Shown: piece after piece, positions 6,005 through 45,831 of the stretch
Layout: the number at the start of each line of letters is the position of its first letter
How positions within the stretch are numbered: the stretch's first letter is position 1
Origin: Candidatus Hydrogenedentota bacterium
GTDB lineage: Bacteria > Hydrogenedentota > Hydrogenedentia > Hydrogenedentales > JAEUWI01
Reading direction: 5' to 3'
Assembly (NCBI GenBank): GCA_016791475.1
Contig: JAEUWI010000004.1
Coordinates: 62,001 to 126,000, forward strand
DNA length: 64,000 nucleotides
Translations under genes and position numbers: made by a program
The notes under the pieces: generated by a model
The model's database searches: none
Seen by the model: only the letters and a program-made list of their open reading frames with translations
Told to the model about the DNA's origin: nothing

Positions 6005-6109
6005 CCAGCCTACAGCCTACAGCCTTCGCCCCCCTGACTTCACTTCCCCCCGCGCCGGAATGTATCCTAAGTGCGCATGCCACGGCGTACTTTCGAAGGA
6101 GATCACCCC

Positions 6110-6613
6110 ATGAACAACCCCAAAATGTCCGTTCTTATCGAGTTGCTCAAACAAGCACGGGCGCAAACCCTCAAAGCCGCCCACGATGTGCCCGAATCCC
6201 ATCGATTTAAACAGCTTCAGGCGGAAAAGGCCACGCCCATCTGGCTCCTCGGCCATCTCTCGCGCACGATGGACCGCGTCATCCTCGAATACATGCTGCA
6301 GGAGTCCCAGGTCCTGAGCGACGAGGATCGCCAGCGATTCGCCCCCTCCATGGCGGGCGGCACACCCCCGACCAGCAATCCAGAGGATTACCCCGCTTGG
6401 GACGCGGTCGTCGCCCTCTACGAGACCGCCAGCGCACAGGCGATTGAAAAATTAAGCGCGCTCGCCGACACGGATTGGGACAAGCCCCTGCCCGGCGAAA
6501 TGACGCCCGCCTACCGCGAACTGTTCCCCACCATTGGGGCCGCCCTCCAGCGGGTCATCAACCACGACGCCTACCACCGGGGACAAATCGGCCTGCTCAG
6601 CAAACTGAACTGA
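6110..6613 (+). CDS. DinB-family protein, copy 1
   Basis: A 167-residue four-helix-bundle protein of the DinB/YfiT superfamily. The start ATG 6110 follows GAAGGAG by a normal distance; the frame stays open further upstream but is not family-like. Seen: LGHLSRTMDRVI near residue 45 and the C-terminal HDAYHRGQIGLL, which carry the histidines that bind a divalent metal in this superfamily. Members act as thiol transferases or metal-dependent hydrolases, and no specific reaction can be assigned. It is followed 33 bases later by a paralogue. Confidence 0.8.
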   Translation: MNNPKMSVLIELLKQARAQTLKAAHDVPESHRFKQLQAEKATPIWLLGHLSRTMDRVILEYMLQESQVLSDEDRQRFAPSMAGGTPPTSNPEDYPAWDAVVALYETASAQAIEKLSALADTDWDKPLPGEMTPAYRELFPTIGAALQRVINHDAYHRGQIGLLSKLN

Positions 6614-6646
6614 TTCCCCGCAACGAAATCAACGCAAGGAAATCAC

Positions 6647-7150
6647 ATGTCCAACACGAAGATTCAGCTCTACACCGAAATGCTCGAGGGCGCCCGCAAA
6701 CACACGCTTCAGGTTGCCGAAGGCGTGCCCGAGGGCAAGCGATTCAAGCAACTCCAGGAAGGCAAGGCCACACCCGCCTGGCTCGTCGGCCACCTGGCCA
6801 ACACCATGAACGTCCTCGTGGTCATGTTCATCCTCGAAGGCGACTCCCTCCTCACCAAAGAGCAGGGCAACACCTTCGCCCCCGACTTCGCCGGTGGAAA
6901 AGCCCCAACGGAAAACCAGGACGAATACCCTGCCTGGGACGAGATCATCGCGCTCTACAACAAGGTCTTTGACGCGGCCATCGCGGGGCTCTCGAAGCTC
7001 GACGACAACGCCCTGCCCAATCAACTCTCCAGCAAAATGCCCGACCGCCTGCGCGACTACTTCTCCTCCGTCGAAGTGACCCTCGGCTTCATGGTCAGCC
7101 ACGACGCCTACCATCGTGGCCAGATCGGCCTCCTCGCCAAACTGAATTGA
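6647..7150 (+). CDS. DinB-family protein, copy 2
   Basis: Paralogue of the preceding gene with the same 167-residue length. Shared blocks include FKQL near residue 28, W-L-x-GHL near 46, the FAP..AGG loop near 85 and the ending HDAYHRGQIGLLAKLN. Spacing of 33 bases suggests one transcript. The pair is a tandem duplication that has diverged considerably, so the two copies may now differ in substrate. Confidence 0.8.
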   Translation: MSNTKIQLYTEMLEGARKHTLQVAEGVPEGKRFKQLQEGKATPAWLVGHLANTMNVLVVMFILEGDSLLTKEQGNTFAPDFAGGKAPTENQDEYPAWDEIIALYNKVFDAAIAGLSKLDDNALPNQLSSKMPDRLRDYFSSVEVTLGFMVSHDAYHRGQIGLLAKLN

Positions 7151-7368: not shown

Positions 7369-8001
7369 CTACCCCGGCGTATGAAAATCGCTCACCACAG
7401 GATTCGTCGACGAGCCCGGCGTCGGTAAAGAAACATCGATACGCTCAGACAGTTTTGTCATGAAATCAAGCATGTAAATGAGCAGGATACCGCAACTCAA
7501 AACCATAGACGAACTCAGCAAACTACACGTGCATAACCAGCCGAGCAAAACACCCAGCAGTCGATTGGAGCCCGTTCCGTAGATGTGCTCCGGTAGTGTG
7601 CCACGCTCAGGGCGCCAGGAGGTCAGGAGGAGCCGAAGCATACCGTTGTACGGACTGCCAAATCGGTAGGGCGCCACAATCAGCTTGGCCCCATCGCGAA
7701 AGTAGAGTTGTCCACTCAATCGATTGAAGTATTGCAGGGAATCCGAGTGAAGAAAGACCCTCTGCCCTCCACTGTGAAGGATCGCTAAACTCCGGCGGGA
7801 GATCACAAATGCAAGTTTGATTGGGTCTTGAAAGTAAGTCTGTCGCACGATATAGACCAACGCCCCCGTGGACGCAAACACTCCACTTGCGCTGCAGAAC
7901 ACGGCAAGCATTTGCGCGGTCATGTCGCCCTCTGAAATATACCCTGAAACGATTTCTCCCCAGTATTGGACGACAAGCAATACAAATCCGGCACCAATCA
8001 A
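7369..8001 (-). CDS. Membrane protein, unnamed W-W/R-P family, member 2
   Basis: About 210 residues from TTG 8001. Two N-terminal membrane segments (about 1-20 and 27-50), a middle soluble region of beta-rich character (FVISRRSLAILHSGG to APYRFG), the family mark LTSWRPERG and a C-terminal membrane segment near 150-175. Compare the genes at 8029, 42759, 43903 and 44717. The open frame continues upstream without a stop only as far as the TGA of the previous gene, and that upstream stretch is also hydrophobic, so the true start is unclear; no ribosome-binding site is seen. Function unknown. Confidence 0.6.
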   Translation of the reverse strand: MIGAGFVLLVVQYWGEIVSGYISEGDMTAQMLAVFCSASGVFASTGALVYIVRQTYFQDPIKLAFVISRRSLAILHSGGQRVFLHSDSLQYFNRLSGQLYFRDGAKLIVAPYRFGSPYNGMLRLLLTSWRPERGTLPEHIYGTGSNRLLGVLLGWLCTCSLLSSSMVLSCGILLIYMLDFMTKLSERIDVSLPTPGSSTNPVVSDFHTPG

Positions 8002-8028
8002 CGCGCAAACCGCGAGGGAAAGAATTTG

Positions 8029-8598
8029 TCAGACCGAGTGTGATCTGCCTGCGGTATAGACGAGAAGCGGATCGCGCCCATCAGGCCGCCCGTATAAATC
8101 CACCATCAGGTCAAGTGTTCCTTCCGGATCGCCTTCCACAATCCCCCTCCAGAGCGGCGTCCCATAAAAACCCGGCCACCAGGCTTTGCACAGTCCCGAA
8201 ACGAGGTCCTTCAGATACGGTTTCGCACTCACCGAACCCAGCGGCAGGTGTCCTCCATTCCGAAGCACCAACTTCCAAGACCCCGGCAGCACCCCCGTGC
8301 ATTCGTTGCGATGCACAAACATGCGCGGTTGCCCAGGCAGCACAATAGCCAGCGTATTGCTAGTCAGCACATAGTGCCCGTGAATCCGCCCCGCCCTCGC
8401 CTGAAAAATCCGTACCGTCAGGAATGCGATGGTGCAAAAAAGAAGCACGATCAGAGACCAGGATGTCCCCCGCAGCCCGTTCGACGGTCCATCAAGCAGT
8501 ACCACCAGGCCCACCACCGCTACCAGATGAACAATGCCGAAGATCCGAATCGCGTAGTAGCTCTGCTCCTGGACCTTGGATATCCTGAAGGTCTGCAT
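8029..8598 (-). CDS. Membrane protein, unnamed W-W/R-P family, member 1
   Basis: A 189-residue protein from ATG 8598, preceded by AGAGGGA. It has membrane segments at about 12-36 and 45-64, then a soluble domain with FVHRNECTGVLPG, GHLPLG and CKAWWPGFYG. The histidine-arginine-asparagine-glutamate and WWP positions line up with PHRNEVLL and AWWPEIDL in the genes at 42759 and 43903. Unlike the others it has no C-terminal membrane segment. Its TGA stop is in the same frame as the next gene, nine codons ahead of that gene's TTG. Function unknown. Confidence 0.6.
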   Translation of the reverse strand: MQTFRISKVQEQSYYAIRIFGIVHLVAVVGLVVLLDGPSNGLRGTSWSLIVLLFCTIAFLTVRIFQARAGRIHGHYVLTSNTLAIVLPGQPRMFVHRNECTGVLPGSWKLVLRNGGHLPLGSVSAKPYLKDLVSGLCKAWWPGFYGTPLWRGIVEGDPEGTLDLMVDLYGRPDGRDPLLVYTAGRSHSV

Positions 8599-8784
8599 GG
8601 CGTCCCTCTCGCATGTTGCGACGACCATAGCCGATTAGCGCTTCCTGAACCGAGTACACGGCCCACAATCAGGATACCACGGGTCTGAGGGAAATATTCA
8701 ATGCGTGGCGGAGCCGCCCAGAACAAAGCACGGGGCGCGAAGCTTCAACACGCGCCTCGCTCTGGTGACGGAACTTAAATTGCG

Positions 8785-40601: not shown

Positions 40602-41996
40602 TCATTTCTTCCGCAACGGGAAAAGGGTAGAATCCACATGCGCCTCCTTCATTAACCCGGCAAGCTCCGCCGCCACCGCCGGAAACTCCGAAGCCCGATT
40701 GCGTGCTTCACCAGGGTCCTCTATCAGATTATAAAGCTCCAATGGACCATCCGGAAACTCCGCCACGTTCAGGCGTATTCCCTTCCACTCTCCTTTGCGC
40801 ACCGCCTGCTTCCCGCCCTGCTCCGTGAACTCCCAATACAAGTAATCATGTTTTTTCTGCGCGGCATCGTTACCCATAAGCGCCTGAACGTACGAGTGGC
40901 CATCGAGATCCGCCGGCGGGGAGGTCCCCGCAAGTTCCGCCGCCGTGGGCAGGAAATCCCAGAAGGCCGACACGTGGGACGAGGTCGTCCCCGGCTGGAT
41001 CCGCCCCTGCCACCGTGCGATAAGCGGCACGCGGATACCGCCCTCGTACAGATCGCGCTTGATCCCCCGCAGCGGGCCATTGCTGTCGAACCACGTGGGG
41101 TCGTTGCCCCCCTCCTTGTGGGGACCATTGTCGCTGCTGAAGATCACCAGCGTGTTCTCGTCGATACCCAGTTCTTTCAACAAGTCCAGCAAGCGCCCCA
41201 CGTCCCGATCCAGTCGCGACACCATGGCCGCCATATTCTTCTTGTTTTCCGGCCAGTCCCTGTCCTGGTAGATGCCCTGATCCGGCACCTCCATCCCCGC
41301 CTCGCCCGCTTCATTGTTCGCGTGGGGCAAGGTGAGGGCCCAATAGAGAAAAAAGGGTCGTTGAGCACTCCGCCGAACAAAGTCCAGCCCTTCCTGGGCA
41401 ATCAGATCGTGGCTGTACGCCACTTTTTCGCTCGCCACGCCCGCGCCCGATTCCTTCGGCTCCGGCACCACATTGTTCAGCGTCACACGCTCTTCGTTGC
41501 GCAGCAGAAAGGTCGGAAAGTAATTGTGGGCGTGCTTCTGGTCGAGGTACCCGTAGAAGTAGTCAAAGCCCTGGCGATTGGGAACGCCCTCTTCCCCCTC
41601 AACGCCCAGGCCCCACTTCCCGCACAACCCCGTCGCATAACCCGCACCCTTCAGCACCTCCGCCACCGTCACGTCCTCCGGACGCAGATTCACCCGCTGA
41701 TTCCCGCGAATATAACCGTGCCCCGTGTGCAGGCCCGTCATCAACGCGCACCGGCTCGGCGCACACACCGTGCTCCCCGCATAATGCTGCGTGAAGCGAA
41801 TCCCCTCCGCCGCAAGCCGGTCGATGTTCGGCGTCTGAATGTCCTTCTGCCCATAGCAACCCAGATCGCCATAGCCCAGATCATCCGCCAGGATATACAC
41901 GATATTCGGCTTCGATTCAGCCTTTGCCCTGTTCCCCAGCCCGGCAATGGCCAGGGTCGAAAGGCCGGTCGCGGCCAGAAAGTCTCGTCTGCGCAT
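40602..41996 (-). CDS. Tat-exported sulfatase (CAPSR type)
   Basis: 464 residues from ATG 41996, preceded by AAGGAGG. A twin-arginine signal MRRRDFLAATG opens the protein. The sulfatase signature Cys78-Ala-Pro-Ser-Arg carries the cysteine that is converted to formylglycine; metal residues lie in VYILADDLGYGD and SSDNGPHKEGG near 290. Hydrolyses sulfate esters, probably of a polysaccharide. No maturation enzyme is encoded in this window, so it must lie elsewhere. It precedes the PhoD-like gene by 13 bases. Confidence 0.93.
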   Translation of the reverse strand: MRRRDFLAATGLSTLAIAGLGNRAKAESKPNIVYILADDLGYGDLGCYGQKDIQTPNIDRLAAEGIRFTQHYAGSTVCAPSRCALMTGLHTGHGYIRGNQRVNLRPEDVTVAEVLKGAGYATGLCGKWGLGVEGEEGVPNRQGFDYFYGYLDQKHAHNYFPTFLLRNEERVTLNNVVPEPKESGAGVASEKVAYSHDLIAQEGLDFVRRSAQRPFFLYWALTLPHANNEAGEAGMEVPDQGIYQDRDWPENKKNMAAMVSRLDRDVGRLLDLLKELGIDENTLVIFSSDNGPHKEGGNDPTWFDSNGPLRGIKRDLYEGGIRVPLIARWQGRIQPGTTSSHVSAFWDFLPTAAELAGTSPPADLDGHSYVQALMGNDAAQKKHDYLYWEFTEQGGKQAVRKGEWKGIRLNVAEFPDGPLELYNLIEDPGEARNRASEFPAVAAELAGLMKEAHVDSTLFPLRKK

Positions 41997-42358
41997 GAAT
42001 TGGCCTCCTTCGGCACTCAGCACGGGTAAATACCGTCATGACCCGATTGTAGAGTCTGGGATCGGAAGTTACAAGGGGCTAAATCCAAGCTAATCCACCG
42101 GCTCCGCCGGCAAGGATTTATTAGGCTCTACCGTTCCGCCATGGTAAACGTTGGCTAGCGAACGAGTCGGGCCTAAGGGCTTTGATCGAATTTAAGTTGC
42201 CAACTTCGAGTTTCTGTGCGATTTTGAAATCGCTCTCGGCGTTATATTGGCGAGCGAAAAGCGATCCACGAGGCTTCAGATCGGAACAAAACTTGGCAAG
42301 TTTAAATTGGCCACCGCCCTAAGTAGCAACAAGCATTTGAAACGAAAGGACTGTATTA

Positions 42359-42495
42359 GCTCCGTAGGAGCGGCATATCGTAGCCCAGGGTGAAGCGAGG
42401 TACGAGCGGAACCCTGGGTATTGGATCGCAACAATTTCGAGCCCCAGCGGGGCGGCATAGGAGAACGAGGGAGTTCGTCCCCGGTCTTCTATGCC
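42359..42495. repeat. Tandem GCYCC-N3-GGRGC-GGCATA hairpin modules
   Basis: Module 1 at 42359-42418 has GCTCC-GTA-GGAGC-GGCATA followed by a perfect 8-base stem CCCAGGGT (42384-42391 with 42411-42418). Module 2, 82 bases on at 42441-42495, has GCCCC-AGC-GGGGC-GGCATA and closes by pairing GGCATAG (42454-42460) with CTATGCC (42489-42495). The T-A pair in the first stem becomes C-G in the second. Similar TAGGAGCGGCAT repeats are recalled from PVC-type genomes, where short frames through them are sometimes mis-annotated as proteins. Confidence 0.6.
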
Positions 42496-42697
42496 ATCCC
42501 CACGGGATTAAAAGTTATGGGCAGATATCCGAGGGTTCGCTCGTGCGCCGCTTCACCGCGGGCTACGATATGTCGTCCCTTCGCGACTAAACCCAACGAA
42601 GTCGTTTTGCATGTACCAGCGTGTTCGGTCCTCTGGGGTGGCCTTTCTGAAACCACTGGTTCTACCGGTGGTTACTGATTAAGTACAAACACGTACC

Positions 42698-42726
42698 TTG
42701 CGCCGAAAGCCCATTTCGGTTACGAT
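42698..42726 (+). promoter_or_regulatory. Predicted promoter of the 42759 gene
   Basis: TTGCGC (42698-42703), 17-base spacer, TACGAT (42721-42726). The same TTGCGC-N17-TAGGAT arrangement precedes the paralogous gene at 43903, together with a conserved downstream GATAATCCCAGCGGTACCAA leader. Confidence 0.45.
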
Positions 42727-42758
42727 AATCCCAGCGGTACCAATGAGGGAGTTAAGAC

Positions 42759-43529
42759 ATGCGAGACGAAGTCCTCCAACCAGCGCCAAGCGAATACGCC
42801 GAGGCAACATCTGCGTCCAACGGCGAGCGCCTGTCCGTGAACCAGGTTATCAAACCAACCCGGATCTCCATTGCCGGTGAAGTCGCACTCTACGCCCTCG
42901 AATCCGTTCCCCTGGCCATCGGTATCGCGCTCGCGACCCAACTCTCCTGGCCCCTTGAACCCGACGAGCATTTCATTATCATTCCCGTCGCTATGATTAG
43001 CGGGGTTGGCATACCGGCCTTCTACCGCCTCGCGGACTACCTCCTGTGCCGTCGATACCGTGGCGAACTTCACTTCGACGGCTCCACCGTCGTCTGCATG
43101 GCCCCGGGCAAATCCCCCGAGTCCTTCACCCGGGGCGAAGTCCTGGGCTACTTCCCCCACCGCAACGAAGTGCTCCTGGTCGATGGCCGTACAATTCCCC
43201 TGCCCGGCTCCGGAACCCACCTCCGCTACCATGAATCGAAAATGGTCACGCCCTGGCTGAAAGCCTGGTGGCCGGAGATCGACCTGACCACAGCAATCAG
43301 CACCGCAGAGAAGGCCCAGGGCTGGATACGACACCTTCCCAATGCTGTAAAGGCGATCATAGGCACCACAGCTTTCTGTTGTATTCTTACTTCCTCTGAC
43401 TTCTCACTGGGAATTATGTTTGCCTCGATATTCCTGTTGTCTTACTTTCCCGACTGGATCGAAAACCGATTGCGTCGAAACGTCATGATTACCCTGGGCT
43501 CAGGGACTTACGCGCCCACAAGCACCTGA
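42759..43529 (+). CDS. Membrane protein, unnamed W-W/R-P family, member 3
   Basis: 256 residues. Cytoplasmic N terminus of about 35 residues with NQVIKP, two membrane segments (about 42-62 and 72-92), a soluble beta-rich domain (RYRGELHFDGSTVV, PHRNEVLLVDGRTIPLP, AWWPEIDL), then two C-terminal membrane segments near 205-235 ending in PDWIENRLRRNVMI. Very similar to the next gene. GGGAG precedes the ATG. The middle domain resembles a PH-like sheet in its alternation, but this is only an impression. Function unknown. Confidence 0.65.
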   Translation: MRDEVLQPAPSEYAEATSASNGERLSVNQVIKPTRISIAGEVALYALESVPLAIGIALATQLSWPLEPDEHFIIIPVAMISGVGIPAFYRLADYLLCRRYRGELHFDGSTVVCMAPGKSPESFTRGEVLGYFPHRNEVLLVDGRTIPLPGSGTHLRYHESKMVTPWLKAWWPEIDLTTAISTAEKAQGWIRHLPNAVKAIIGTTAFCCILTSSDFSLGIMFASIFLLSYFPDWIENRLRRNVMITLGSGTYAPTST

Positions 43530-43902
43530 ACGATCAACGCATGTCATAACCCACAGGGGACATGGACAAGCCAATTGCAACGTCGCCGGGCGTGGCTGTA
43601 CCGTCGTCAGCGACGGTGGCCCGGCCACCCCACATCACTTCCCGTGAGTACATGTCGCCTGACCAAGTCCCCTCGAGAATCTCGGCACACGCCCCGCGTG
43701 ACGGGACACCCACGCCCAGAGACATCGGCGCGATTTATGGCAGCGCGCAGCAAGTCCGAGTGCGCAGTACCCCGGCGAGCAAACGTGGGCGCGTCAGTCC
43801 CTGTGTGGCCTCCATACATCATGCCCAAGCGCCATACCCCCTTGCGCCGCAATCCCATTTCCGCTAGGATAATCCCAGCGGTACCAAAGAGGGAGTTTAA
43901 AC
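43530..43902. other. Spacer between tandem paralogues
   Basis: 373 bases. The last 70 are nearly a copy of the sequence before 42759, including promoter and ribosome-binding site, so the whole gene plus its leader was duplicated. The first 300 bases have no recognisable gene; a 63-codon reverse frame at 43534-43725 is unsupported. Confidence 0.5.
43842..43870 (+). promoter_or_regulatory. Predicted promoter of the 43903 gene
   Basis: TTGCGC (43842-43847), 17-base spacer, TAGGAT (43865-43870), matching the promoter of the upstream paralogue in position and spacing. Confidence 0.45.
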
Positions 43903-44730
43903 ATGCAAGACGAAATCCTCCAACCAGAACCCGGCCAAAACGCCGAGCCAACATCTCCCTCCAGCGGCGAGCGCCTGCCCGTGAACCAGGTTATCAAGCC
44001 AAGCGGGCGCGCCATTGCGGGTGCGGTCGTACTCTACGTCCTCCAGGCTCTTCTTCTGGCCGTCGGCCTCTTTGTTGCCGCCGAGTTCTGGTGGCCCCTT
44101 GACCCCGACTTCTACATCATGGTCATTCCCGTAGCCATCACTACCTGGGTTGGCTTCCTCGGCGTGTACCACTTCGCGGACTTCCTCATCTTTCGCCGAT
44201 ATCGCGGCGAGCTTCACTTCGACGGCGCCACGGTCGTCAGTAAGGTCGTGGACTCATCACCCCAGTCTTTTACCCAGCGCGAAGTCCTGGCCTACTTCCC
44301 CCACCGCAACGAAGTACTTCTGTTCGATGGTCGTACCATTCCCCTGCCCGTCTGCGTGACCCACCTTTACTGCCACGATCCGGCAATGGCCACCCCGTGG
44401 CTGAATGCCTGGTGGCCGGAAGTGGACCTGGCCAGAGCAATCCGCATTGCAGAGAAGGCCCAGGGCTGGATACGGCACATTCCCAATGCTGTAAAGGAAA
44501 TCATACTCACCGTAGTTTTCTGTTGTTACCTGCAACTCTTTCCGTTCGCAAGCGAAATCATGCTTTCCTCGCTTTTCCTGCTGCTTTTCTTTCCCGACTG
44601 GATCGAAAATCGATTGCGTAGAAGCGTCATGATTGCGTTCCAGAGTAACCAGGGCACCGGGAGCGGCCTGGCGCAGGAGGACCATTCAGGAGCAAGCCCT
44701 TCGGAGCCCGCCCAGCATGATCGTCCTTAG
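43903..44730 (+). CDS. Membrane protein, unnamed W-W/R-P family, member 4
   Basis: 275 residues, paralogue of the preceding gene. Identical or near-identical blocks: NQVIKP, RRYRGELHFDGATVV, YFPHRNEVLLFDGRTIPLP, AWWPEVDLARAI, EKAQGWIRHIPNAVKE and FPDWIENRLRRSVMI. Membrane segments fall in the same places. The C-terminal tail is about 25 residues longer and hydrophilic. Its end overlaps the next gene by 14 bases. Function unknown. Confidence 0.65.
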   Translation: MQDEILQPEPGQNAEPTSPSSGERLPVNQVIKPSGRAIAGAVVLYVLQALLLAVGLFVAAEFWWPLDPDFYIMVIPVAITTWVGFLGVYHFADFLIFRRYRGELHFDGATVVSKVVDSSPQSFTQREVLAYFPHRNEVLLFDGRTIPLPVCVTHLYCHDPAMATPWLNAWWPEVDLARAIRIAEKAQGWIRHIPNAVKEIILTVVFCCYLQLFPFASEIMLSSLFLLLFFPDWIENRLRRSVMIAFQSNQGTGSGLAQEDHSGASPSEPAQHDRP

Positions 44731-45436
44731 CTCCCCACCGCCCAGAAAGGCCGCCCGCCAATTCTTTCTCTCCCTGACTATCCTTGGTGCATTGGGACTA
44801 CTAATCAAGGGCGCAGTGGACTTTGGCCAGCTCCCGGAGGCCTGGAGCGATCCCGACCGCCTGGCTGTCTTCAACATAGTAATCGGCATTGCTATGGGGT
44901 TGGCGGGCATGGCTGCGGCAGCATGGCAAATAGTCCATCACTTCACTGGCCCCGAACCGCTCCAACGTCTGGTGGCCACGGAAGAAACCCTGGCCATCAA
45001 GACCCTCGGCAAGCCAATCCTCTTTGTCAAACGCCGCAATTGTATCGCCCTTTCGCACGATGGCTCCATCCTCGTTCTGAATGACGGAAGCCGGGTGGTA
45101 GTCCACGCCTATGGTGCCGACAAGAGGGAAATGGACGCGTTCCTCAGGTCGCTCTACGAGCTCTGGTGGCCCAGACTTATCCGCGCCGACGTGCAGGCTT
45201 ATCTGAAGCAGCGCGAACCCCGAATCTGGCCCCTCCTCTTTCTCCCGATTGCTACGACACCCCTCTTCACCTTAGTCATCATCAACCTCGATTCAAGAGA
45301 TAGTGTCTTGACCCTGACCGGGATACTATTTGGCGCATTGATCGCCTCCTTTGGATTTATCGGCTGGTGCTTCTACCGAGTCCAGATTTCGATCGCCAGG
45401 AACCAGTACCCGCTTCACGACACGAACGAACGGTAG
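44717..45436 (+). CDS. Membrane protein, unnamed W-W/R-P family, member 5
   Basis: 239 residues from ATG 44717, overlapping the previous gene. Membrane segments at about 14-33, 45-68 and, near the end, 170-215. The soluble part has ILFVKRRNCIALSHDGSILVLNDGSRVVV and LYELWWPRLIRAD, placing it in the family, though it is more distant. Coupled expression with the previous gene is likely. Function unknown. Confidence 0.6.
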   Translation: MIVLSSPPPRKAARQFFLSLTILGALGLLIKGAVDFGQLPEAWSDPDRLAVFNIVIGIAMGLAGMAAAAWQIVHHFTGPEPLQRLVATEETLAIKTLGKPILFVKRRNCIALSHDGSILVLNDGSRVVVHAYGADKREMDAFLRSLYELWWPRLIRADVQAYLKQREPRIWPLLFLPIATTPLFTLVIINLDSRDSVLTLTGILFGALIASFGFIGWCFYRVQISIARNQYPLHDTNER

Positions 45437-45532: not shown

Positions 45533-45733
45533 CTATCGCGCCTGCATCGCCATCCACGCCATGATGGCAATGATGATGAAAGCAAACAAGGCCCCCGCGC
45601 AACCAAAATATAGCCGCACCTTGAACCAGGTGCTCTGATAGGTACAATCAGGATTCGGGCAGACACCCCGGTTGACGCCCATGGGCTGGCCGCATTCGGG
45701 GCAGTTTTTTGTGAGATCGGCAGGGGTAGGCAC
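45533..45733 (-). CDS. Small zinc-ribbon membrane protein
   Basis: 66 residues from GTG 45733, seven bases after AAGGAAG; the frame continues upstream but without a good start. CPECGQPMGVNRGVCPNPDC near residues 12-31 is a zinc ribbon, followed by one membrane segment near 40-64. Function unknown. It lies convergent to the membrane family cluster. Confidence 0.55.
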   Translation of the reverse strand: MPTPADLTKNCPECGQPMGVNRGVCPNPDCTYQSTWFKVRLYFGCAGALFAFIIIAIMAWMAMQAR

Positions 45734-45831
45734 GGTGGTACTTCCTTGGTGTTGGGTGATGCCCCCAAGTATAGCGCGAAGCAGCCAGACGACGCCACCG
45801 GAGCCCGCCCCGGACTCCATCCCCCCCTTCT

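Follow-up and report, generated by a model that had tools for sequence, protein, structure and literature searches.

Three neighboring genes for membrane proteins, two of which resemble each other even upstream of their start codons, raise the question of what family they belong to and what has kept them. They lie in a window of 64,000 nucleotides (the whole stretch of DNA analyzed here; G000:C4:62001-126000) from a 7.7-Mb metagenome-assembled genome (G000) of Hydrogenedentota, a candidate phylum known chiefly through metagenomes.

Layout of the locus

A sequence-only reading had described three neighboring genes of one layout (membrane pair, soluble domain with PHRNE and WWP, membrane pair), the first two being clearly recent copies. 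All three open reading frames (ORFs) are intact in the window (Table 1), and each encodes a predicted transmembrane (TM) pair of hydrophobic segments, a soluble part of about 105 aa, and a second such pair. P0003 is a distant relative of the other two. The PHRNE mark is absent from P0003, which has LSHDGSILVL at that place and carries WWP. P0001 and P0002 are indeed paralogues (61% identity across 249 aa, zero gaps); they do not appear to be very recent, given that 24% of their coding bases differ, with a synonymous distance of about 0.4 to 0.5. Their dN/dS ratio was 0.66 overall (bootstrap 95% interval, 0.46 to 0.94; 1.1% of replicates at or above 1), with the lowest value in the soluble domain (about 0.44) and values of about 0.7 in the TM hairpins. 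These ratios indicate weak purifying selection, in agreement with the earlier proposal that retention of the copies implies selection.

At a register of 1,144 bp, the likeness of the two DNA segments has a sharp upstream boundary at about 42700/43844 and extends to around codon 244. The duplicated stretch comprises about 60 bp upstream (instead of the 70 bases proposed before) and most of the gene, and the promoter-like boxes (TTGCGC-N17-TA(C/G)GAT) and leader that had been described as duplicated are present at both genes. Because the 350-bp spacer between P0001 and P0002 has no duplicate and matches neither flank, a simple tandem duplication of a 1,144-bp unit was rejected. The spacer also holds a dispersed repeat of 25 to 37 bp (43577 to 43613), which recurs at several further sites in the genome and in two relatives. 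Upstream of P0001 is an inverted repeat (42356 to 42590; 66-nt arms, 74% complementary) that contains the palindrome CCCCAGCGGGGCGGCA.

The first 14 bp of P0003 lie within the end of P0002, an arrangement that puts P0003 in a predicted operon with P0002 instead of under a copied promoter of its own. P0001 and P0002 are referred to here as A type and P0003 as B type. Judged by layout, the unit is an overlapping A-B pair plus an extra A gene, which the description as a three-gene cluster had overlooked; the pair is a candidate transcription unit, and its co-transcription is likely but not certain.

Table 1. Positions of genes and associated elements in the window
Feature	Position	Strand	Basis or comparison
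P0004, divergent B-like protein, WWP changed to WRP, same frame as P0005 past one TGA	7369..8001	-	ORF, frame, profile
P0005, divergent protein without C-terminal TM pair, likely start at second ATG	8029..8628	-	ORF, hydropathy, frame
Promoter-like boxes of P0001, TTGCGC-N17-TACGAT	42698..42726	+	Sequence; conserved before P0002 and G036 P0006
P0001 leader GCGGTACCAnnGAGGGAGTT with ribosome-binding site	42734..42753	+	Sequence, genus-wide comparison
P0001, A-type membrane protein, 256 aa, 2TM-soluble-2TM	42759..43529	+	ORF, pairwise alignment, hydropathy
Promoter-like boxes of P0002, TTGCGC-N17-TAGGAT	43842..43870	+	Sequence; conserved before G036 P0006
Leader GCGGTACCAnnGAGGGAGTT of predicted P0002-P0003 operon	43878..43897	+	Sequence, genus-wide comparison
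P0002, A-type membrane protein, 275 aa	43903..44730	+	ORF, pairwise alignment, hydropathy
14-nt overlap of A stop and B start, ATGATCGTCCTTAG	44717..44730	+	Equal length in G036 and G035
P0003, B-type membrane protein, 239 aa	44717..45436	+	ORF, profile matches, domain model, tree
Soluble domain of P0003, probably PH-like, region modeled	44924..45226	+	AlphaFold, Foldseek PDB

Extent of the family and persistence of the pair

Members were sought in the four genomes of the genus and in 64 other genomes of the phylum. The ten identified all belong to the one genus: G000 has five (the whole-genome copy count that had been suggested as a check), G036 (JAJRPE010000186.1) a pair, G037 two singles, and G035 one. 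The other 64 genomes yielded no convincing member. A single-protein search of the phylum gave two matches (E, about 0.004 to 0.005) over short stretches that the profile search did not recover, and matches with E above 0.01 were counted as chance. When 84,980 species were scanned with P0002 and, separately, the A alignment, the G036 locus alone was returned; the scan relies on short patterns and is weak for a family this divergent. No member was found on plasmids or viral contigs. The restriction to one genus is thus firm as far as the phylum is concerned and weak for other groups.

Sequence comparison places P0001 to P0005 and their relatives in a single family. A-type profiles retrieve B-type proteins and conversely, and hhalign of A against B aligned 74 soluble-domain columns at a probability of 97% (E, 5.8e-11). 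In the soluble-domain tree, A (P0001, P0002, and P0006) and B (P0003, P0007, and P0010) separate with local support of 0.92 and 0.94, which indicates that the A-B split is older than the divergence of species within the genus; G037_C76 groups with B.

The two more distant members that had been noticed in the window are true homologues by profile searches and span 7369 to 8628. The idea of a membrane layout common to all five proteins fails at P0005, which has HRNE and WWP and lacks the C-terminal TM pair; P0004 carries SWRP in place of WWP. This pair looks decayed, since the P0004 frame continues that of P0005 after one TGA. It has no counterpart at the DinB junction of G035, where 39 bp separate the flanking genes.

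The full A-B pair with the exact 14-nt overlap is present in two species (G000 and G036). The junction reads ATGATCGTCCTTAG in G000, ATGTTGGTCTATGA in G036, and ATGTTGAAGATTAA in G035, i.e., 14 nt in all three. In G035, the third species, the ORF ahead of B has only 31 codons, with the leader and overlap kept. This small ORF (MYSGNALHFRGVSSPPDSQSDLIPEAAYVED; L011 1988-2083, reverse strand) replaces the A gene between the leader and B and would be consistent with an A gene shortened by deletion.

The upstream region is conserved as well. The leader GCGGTACCAnnGAGGGAGTT is exact at P0001, P0002, and G036 P0006; at the last of these, the leader (GCGGTACCAGAGAGGGAGTT) and the TTGCGC-N17-TAGGAT boxes are both intact. 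It has two mismatches before B in G035 (GCAGTACCACGCAGGGAGTT, with TTGCGG-N17-TACCAT boxes). The 20-mer GATAATCCCAGCGGTACCAA is identical before P0001 and P0002 and occurs at those two places alone in the 7.7-Mb genome, even when three mismatches are allowed (expected count in the window, 0). Leader identity between G000 and G036 was 65 to 68%, compared with 49 to 50% for coding DNA and at most 58% for shuffled leaders; the whole G035 leader (48 to 60%) did not exceed shuffles, and the case there is the 20-base core and its position. Across about 28 Mb of the genus, the core with up to two mismatches was detected at five places, four of which are family loci and the fifth of which (on C44) has no family member after it. 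At three mismatches, it was no commoner than a reversed control pattern. No larger regulon sharing the leader was seen in these sequences beyond the family loci and the C44 place. In G037 (L027 1387-2202), the region ahead of the likely P0009 start is, by eye only, loosely like the family leader (GGCAGTATCCAAGGGGATTTCAAATG).

The A proteins of G000 and G036 are only 24 to 28% identical, yet the same boxes and leader stand upstream of both. This recurrence in another species strengthens the earlier claim of promoter retention and suggests that the family promoter changes more slowly than its proteins.

The proteins also diverge faster than their surroundings. In a colinear block of G035, B is flanked by the same sulfatase and Zn-ribbon/TM protein as in the window, and the neighbors are 74% (sulfatase), 77% (PhoD-like), 90% (phosphofructokinase), 78% (beta-helix), 66% (Zn-ribbon), and 50% (MscS-type channel) identical. 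P0003 and its positional counterpart P0010 share 33% over only 105 residues, against 62 to 90% for most flanks, and this block contains no complete counterpart of P0001 or P0002. The small protein with a Zn ribbon and one TM segment adjoins B in both genomes (window 45533 to 45820; G035 L052 7322-7498). Its gene and B run in opposite directions in the window; in G035 they share a strand, and their ORFs overlap by 25 nt. A DinB-symporter block lies near the sulfatase in G036 and G037 (L091 and L092); the two are 33 kb apart in the window (6071 to 7150 and 40602 to 42023), and both family loci of the window sit at DinB-symporter/sulfatase rearrangement junctions.

Proteins that diverge fast between conserved flanks, are duplicated in tandem, and vary in presence among syntenic sites could serve in membrane immunity or resistance; the paralogues would then guard against peptides or toxins of neighbors that form pores or act on membranes, and their divergence would track those toxins. 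We consider this quite improbable: no toxin or bacteriocin gene was recognized among the neighbors examined, PADLOC models matched none of the ten members (0 families at E 10), and conservation is highest, rather than lowest, in the soluble domain.

Predicted fold and comparison with known membrane PH systems

Hydropathy gave a TM pair, 100 to 110 soluble residues, and a TM pair in all members except P0005, the first segment of P0007 being weak. The short loops that join paired helices carry mostly neutral or acidic residues, and K and R are more frequent in the rest of the protein; by the positive-inside rule, the N terminus, the soluble domain, and the C terminus are likely, but not certain, to be cytoplasmic.

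A structure prediction of the soluble domain had been proposed in the sequence-only reading. The AlphaFold model of this domain of P0003, built on a shallow alignment of seven sequences from the window and L056, reached a pLDDT of 79.9 and a pTM of 0.68 (a full-length model of P0002 with window sequences was unusable; pLDDT, 41). It has seven strands (3-7, 14-18, 22-27, 33-36, 40-43, 49-52, and 57-59) and a C-terminal helix (67-81) that bears the first W of WWP, an order that agrees with that of the PH superfold, whose seven strands form two sheets under a C-terminal helix cap. Most of the top 50 Foldseek matches in PDB belong to this superfold (GRK2 PH, FERM F3, Rtt106, Pob3, SSRP1, APPL, and Sin1), with probabilities up to 0.99 and TM scores of about 0.5; the best E value was 0.025, and none was individually significant. 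Foldseek against a viral library gave nothing useful. Given this best E value, a PH-like fold of the soluble core is likely, not proven. That the domain is some other small beta-sandwich or barrel with generic PDB matches seems improbable to us; such a fold would suit the lack of any Foldseek E value under 0.02 and a model alignment of only 7 sequences, but the order of seven strands then a helix is that of PH, and the matches are concentrated in one superfold.

PHb domains have seven strands and a C-terminal helix, and membrane PHb proteins have been proposed to oligomerize as transporters or pores (PMC2817789). YdbS/YdbT (bPH_2, PF03703) and DdE/DdF are paired, co-oriented genes encoding TM hairpins and PH-like domains; YdbS/YdbT-like pairs share one locus, and DdE and DdF, relatives of YdbS/YdbT, were both reported to be needed for leaderless bacteriocin export (PMC8657885). 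The ydbST genes belong to the sigma-W regulon (PMC3498285). Two co-oriented, adjacent TM-plus-PH genes likewise occur in G000 and G036, the PH part being model based. YdbS has two TM segments and one PHb2 domain, and YdbT has six TM segments and three PHb2 domains, whereas each protein here carries a single domain flanked by TM hairpins on both sides. The solved members of PF08000 (bPH_1) share the seven strands and C-terminal helix (PMC2817789); unlike the domain studied here, they are not inserted between TM hairpins, and their Pfam model does not match the family. YcxB (PF14317), present in one copy per genome of the genus (on C14 in G000), is alike in having a TM hairpin followed by a short PH-looking domain; it differs in lacking the C-terminal TM hairpin and WWP and in a conserved N-terminal segment that is missing from this family.

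Profile comparisons gave no place in these families. There was no match to the bPH_2 Pfam model at E 10, hhalign against Hydrogenedentota bPH_2 proteins gave 0.1%, and the G000 genome has no PF03703 match; neither the YcxB Pfam model nor the profile of Hydrogenedentota YcxB proteins matched. Filing under bPH_2 or YcxB was rejected on these profiles. DUF6232 (PF19744) weakly matched P0004 (E, 0.006; 17.4 bits against a curated cut-off of 27.4) and one further member, below the cut-off. No accepted family was found in Pfam, NCBIfam, PADLOC, or PHROGs, and a PDB sequence search matched nothing. The earlier statement that no named family has this layout holds for sequence and not for layout, which is similar to that of bacterial membrane PH proteins (YdbS/YdbT and YcxB). 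The anatomy is probably that of a paired membrane PH system with a sequence outside those families. We regard the sequence family as new and limited to one genus, and as probably a variation on a known kind of system.

A proposed role for the A-B pair

The explanation that we favor, with somewhat less than even confidence, is a fast-evolving accessory operon in which A and B are inner-membrane paralogues that act as a PH-like hetero-oligomer with an envelope role. Each would consist of an N-terminal TM hairpin, a cytoplasmic PH-like domain ending in WWP, and a second TM hairpin at the C terminus. With a single mRNA and the fixed 14-nt overlap linking their translation, A and B would probably be made in step and could assemble into a membrane hetero-oligomer, whose PH-like domains would hold the subunits together or bind lipid or a partner. 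We infer the hetero-oligomer and the envelope role by analogy with YdbS/YdbT-type pairs, which would suggest envelope stress response or peptide export; none of the neighboring genes points to export or stress response. In G000, A would have been duplicated along with its promoter, giving a second A copy.

B or B-like proteins without a full A occur in G035 and G037 (singles), so that the A-B pair and the hetero-oligomer would not be obligatory. These unpaired members also suit a reading in which the fold is PH-like, A and B are independent membrane proteins, the overlap is inherited operon layout, and the genes are lineage-specific accessories under loose constraint and with marginal function, as do the dN/dS of only 0.66, the decayed second pair, and the absence of the family from the syntenic DinB junction of G035. 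Independence nevertheless seems rather unlikely, because the exact 14-nt overlap and the leader are kept in three species whose proteins are down to about 25 to 33% identical, and B in G035 retains the leader, the mini-ORF, and the overlap. A bolder form of the hetero-oligomer reading, to which we attach a low probability, is that A and B, ancient paralogues of an unrecognized sequence family of bacterial membrane PH-like proteins, are locked together by the overlap and constitute a heteromeric machine in the membrane. Its protein sequences would be diversifying rapidly under a conserved promoter, a pattern to be expected if it served export, sensing, or immunity in an arms race.

A promoter, leader, and overlap geometry more durable than most of the protein sequence make an unusual combination, and they offer a handle for locating more members and for studying the causes of the divergence. 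An "orphan" family confined to one lineage can thus be a rapidly diverging offshoot of an old fold, invisible to sequence libraries.
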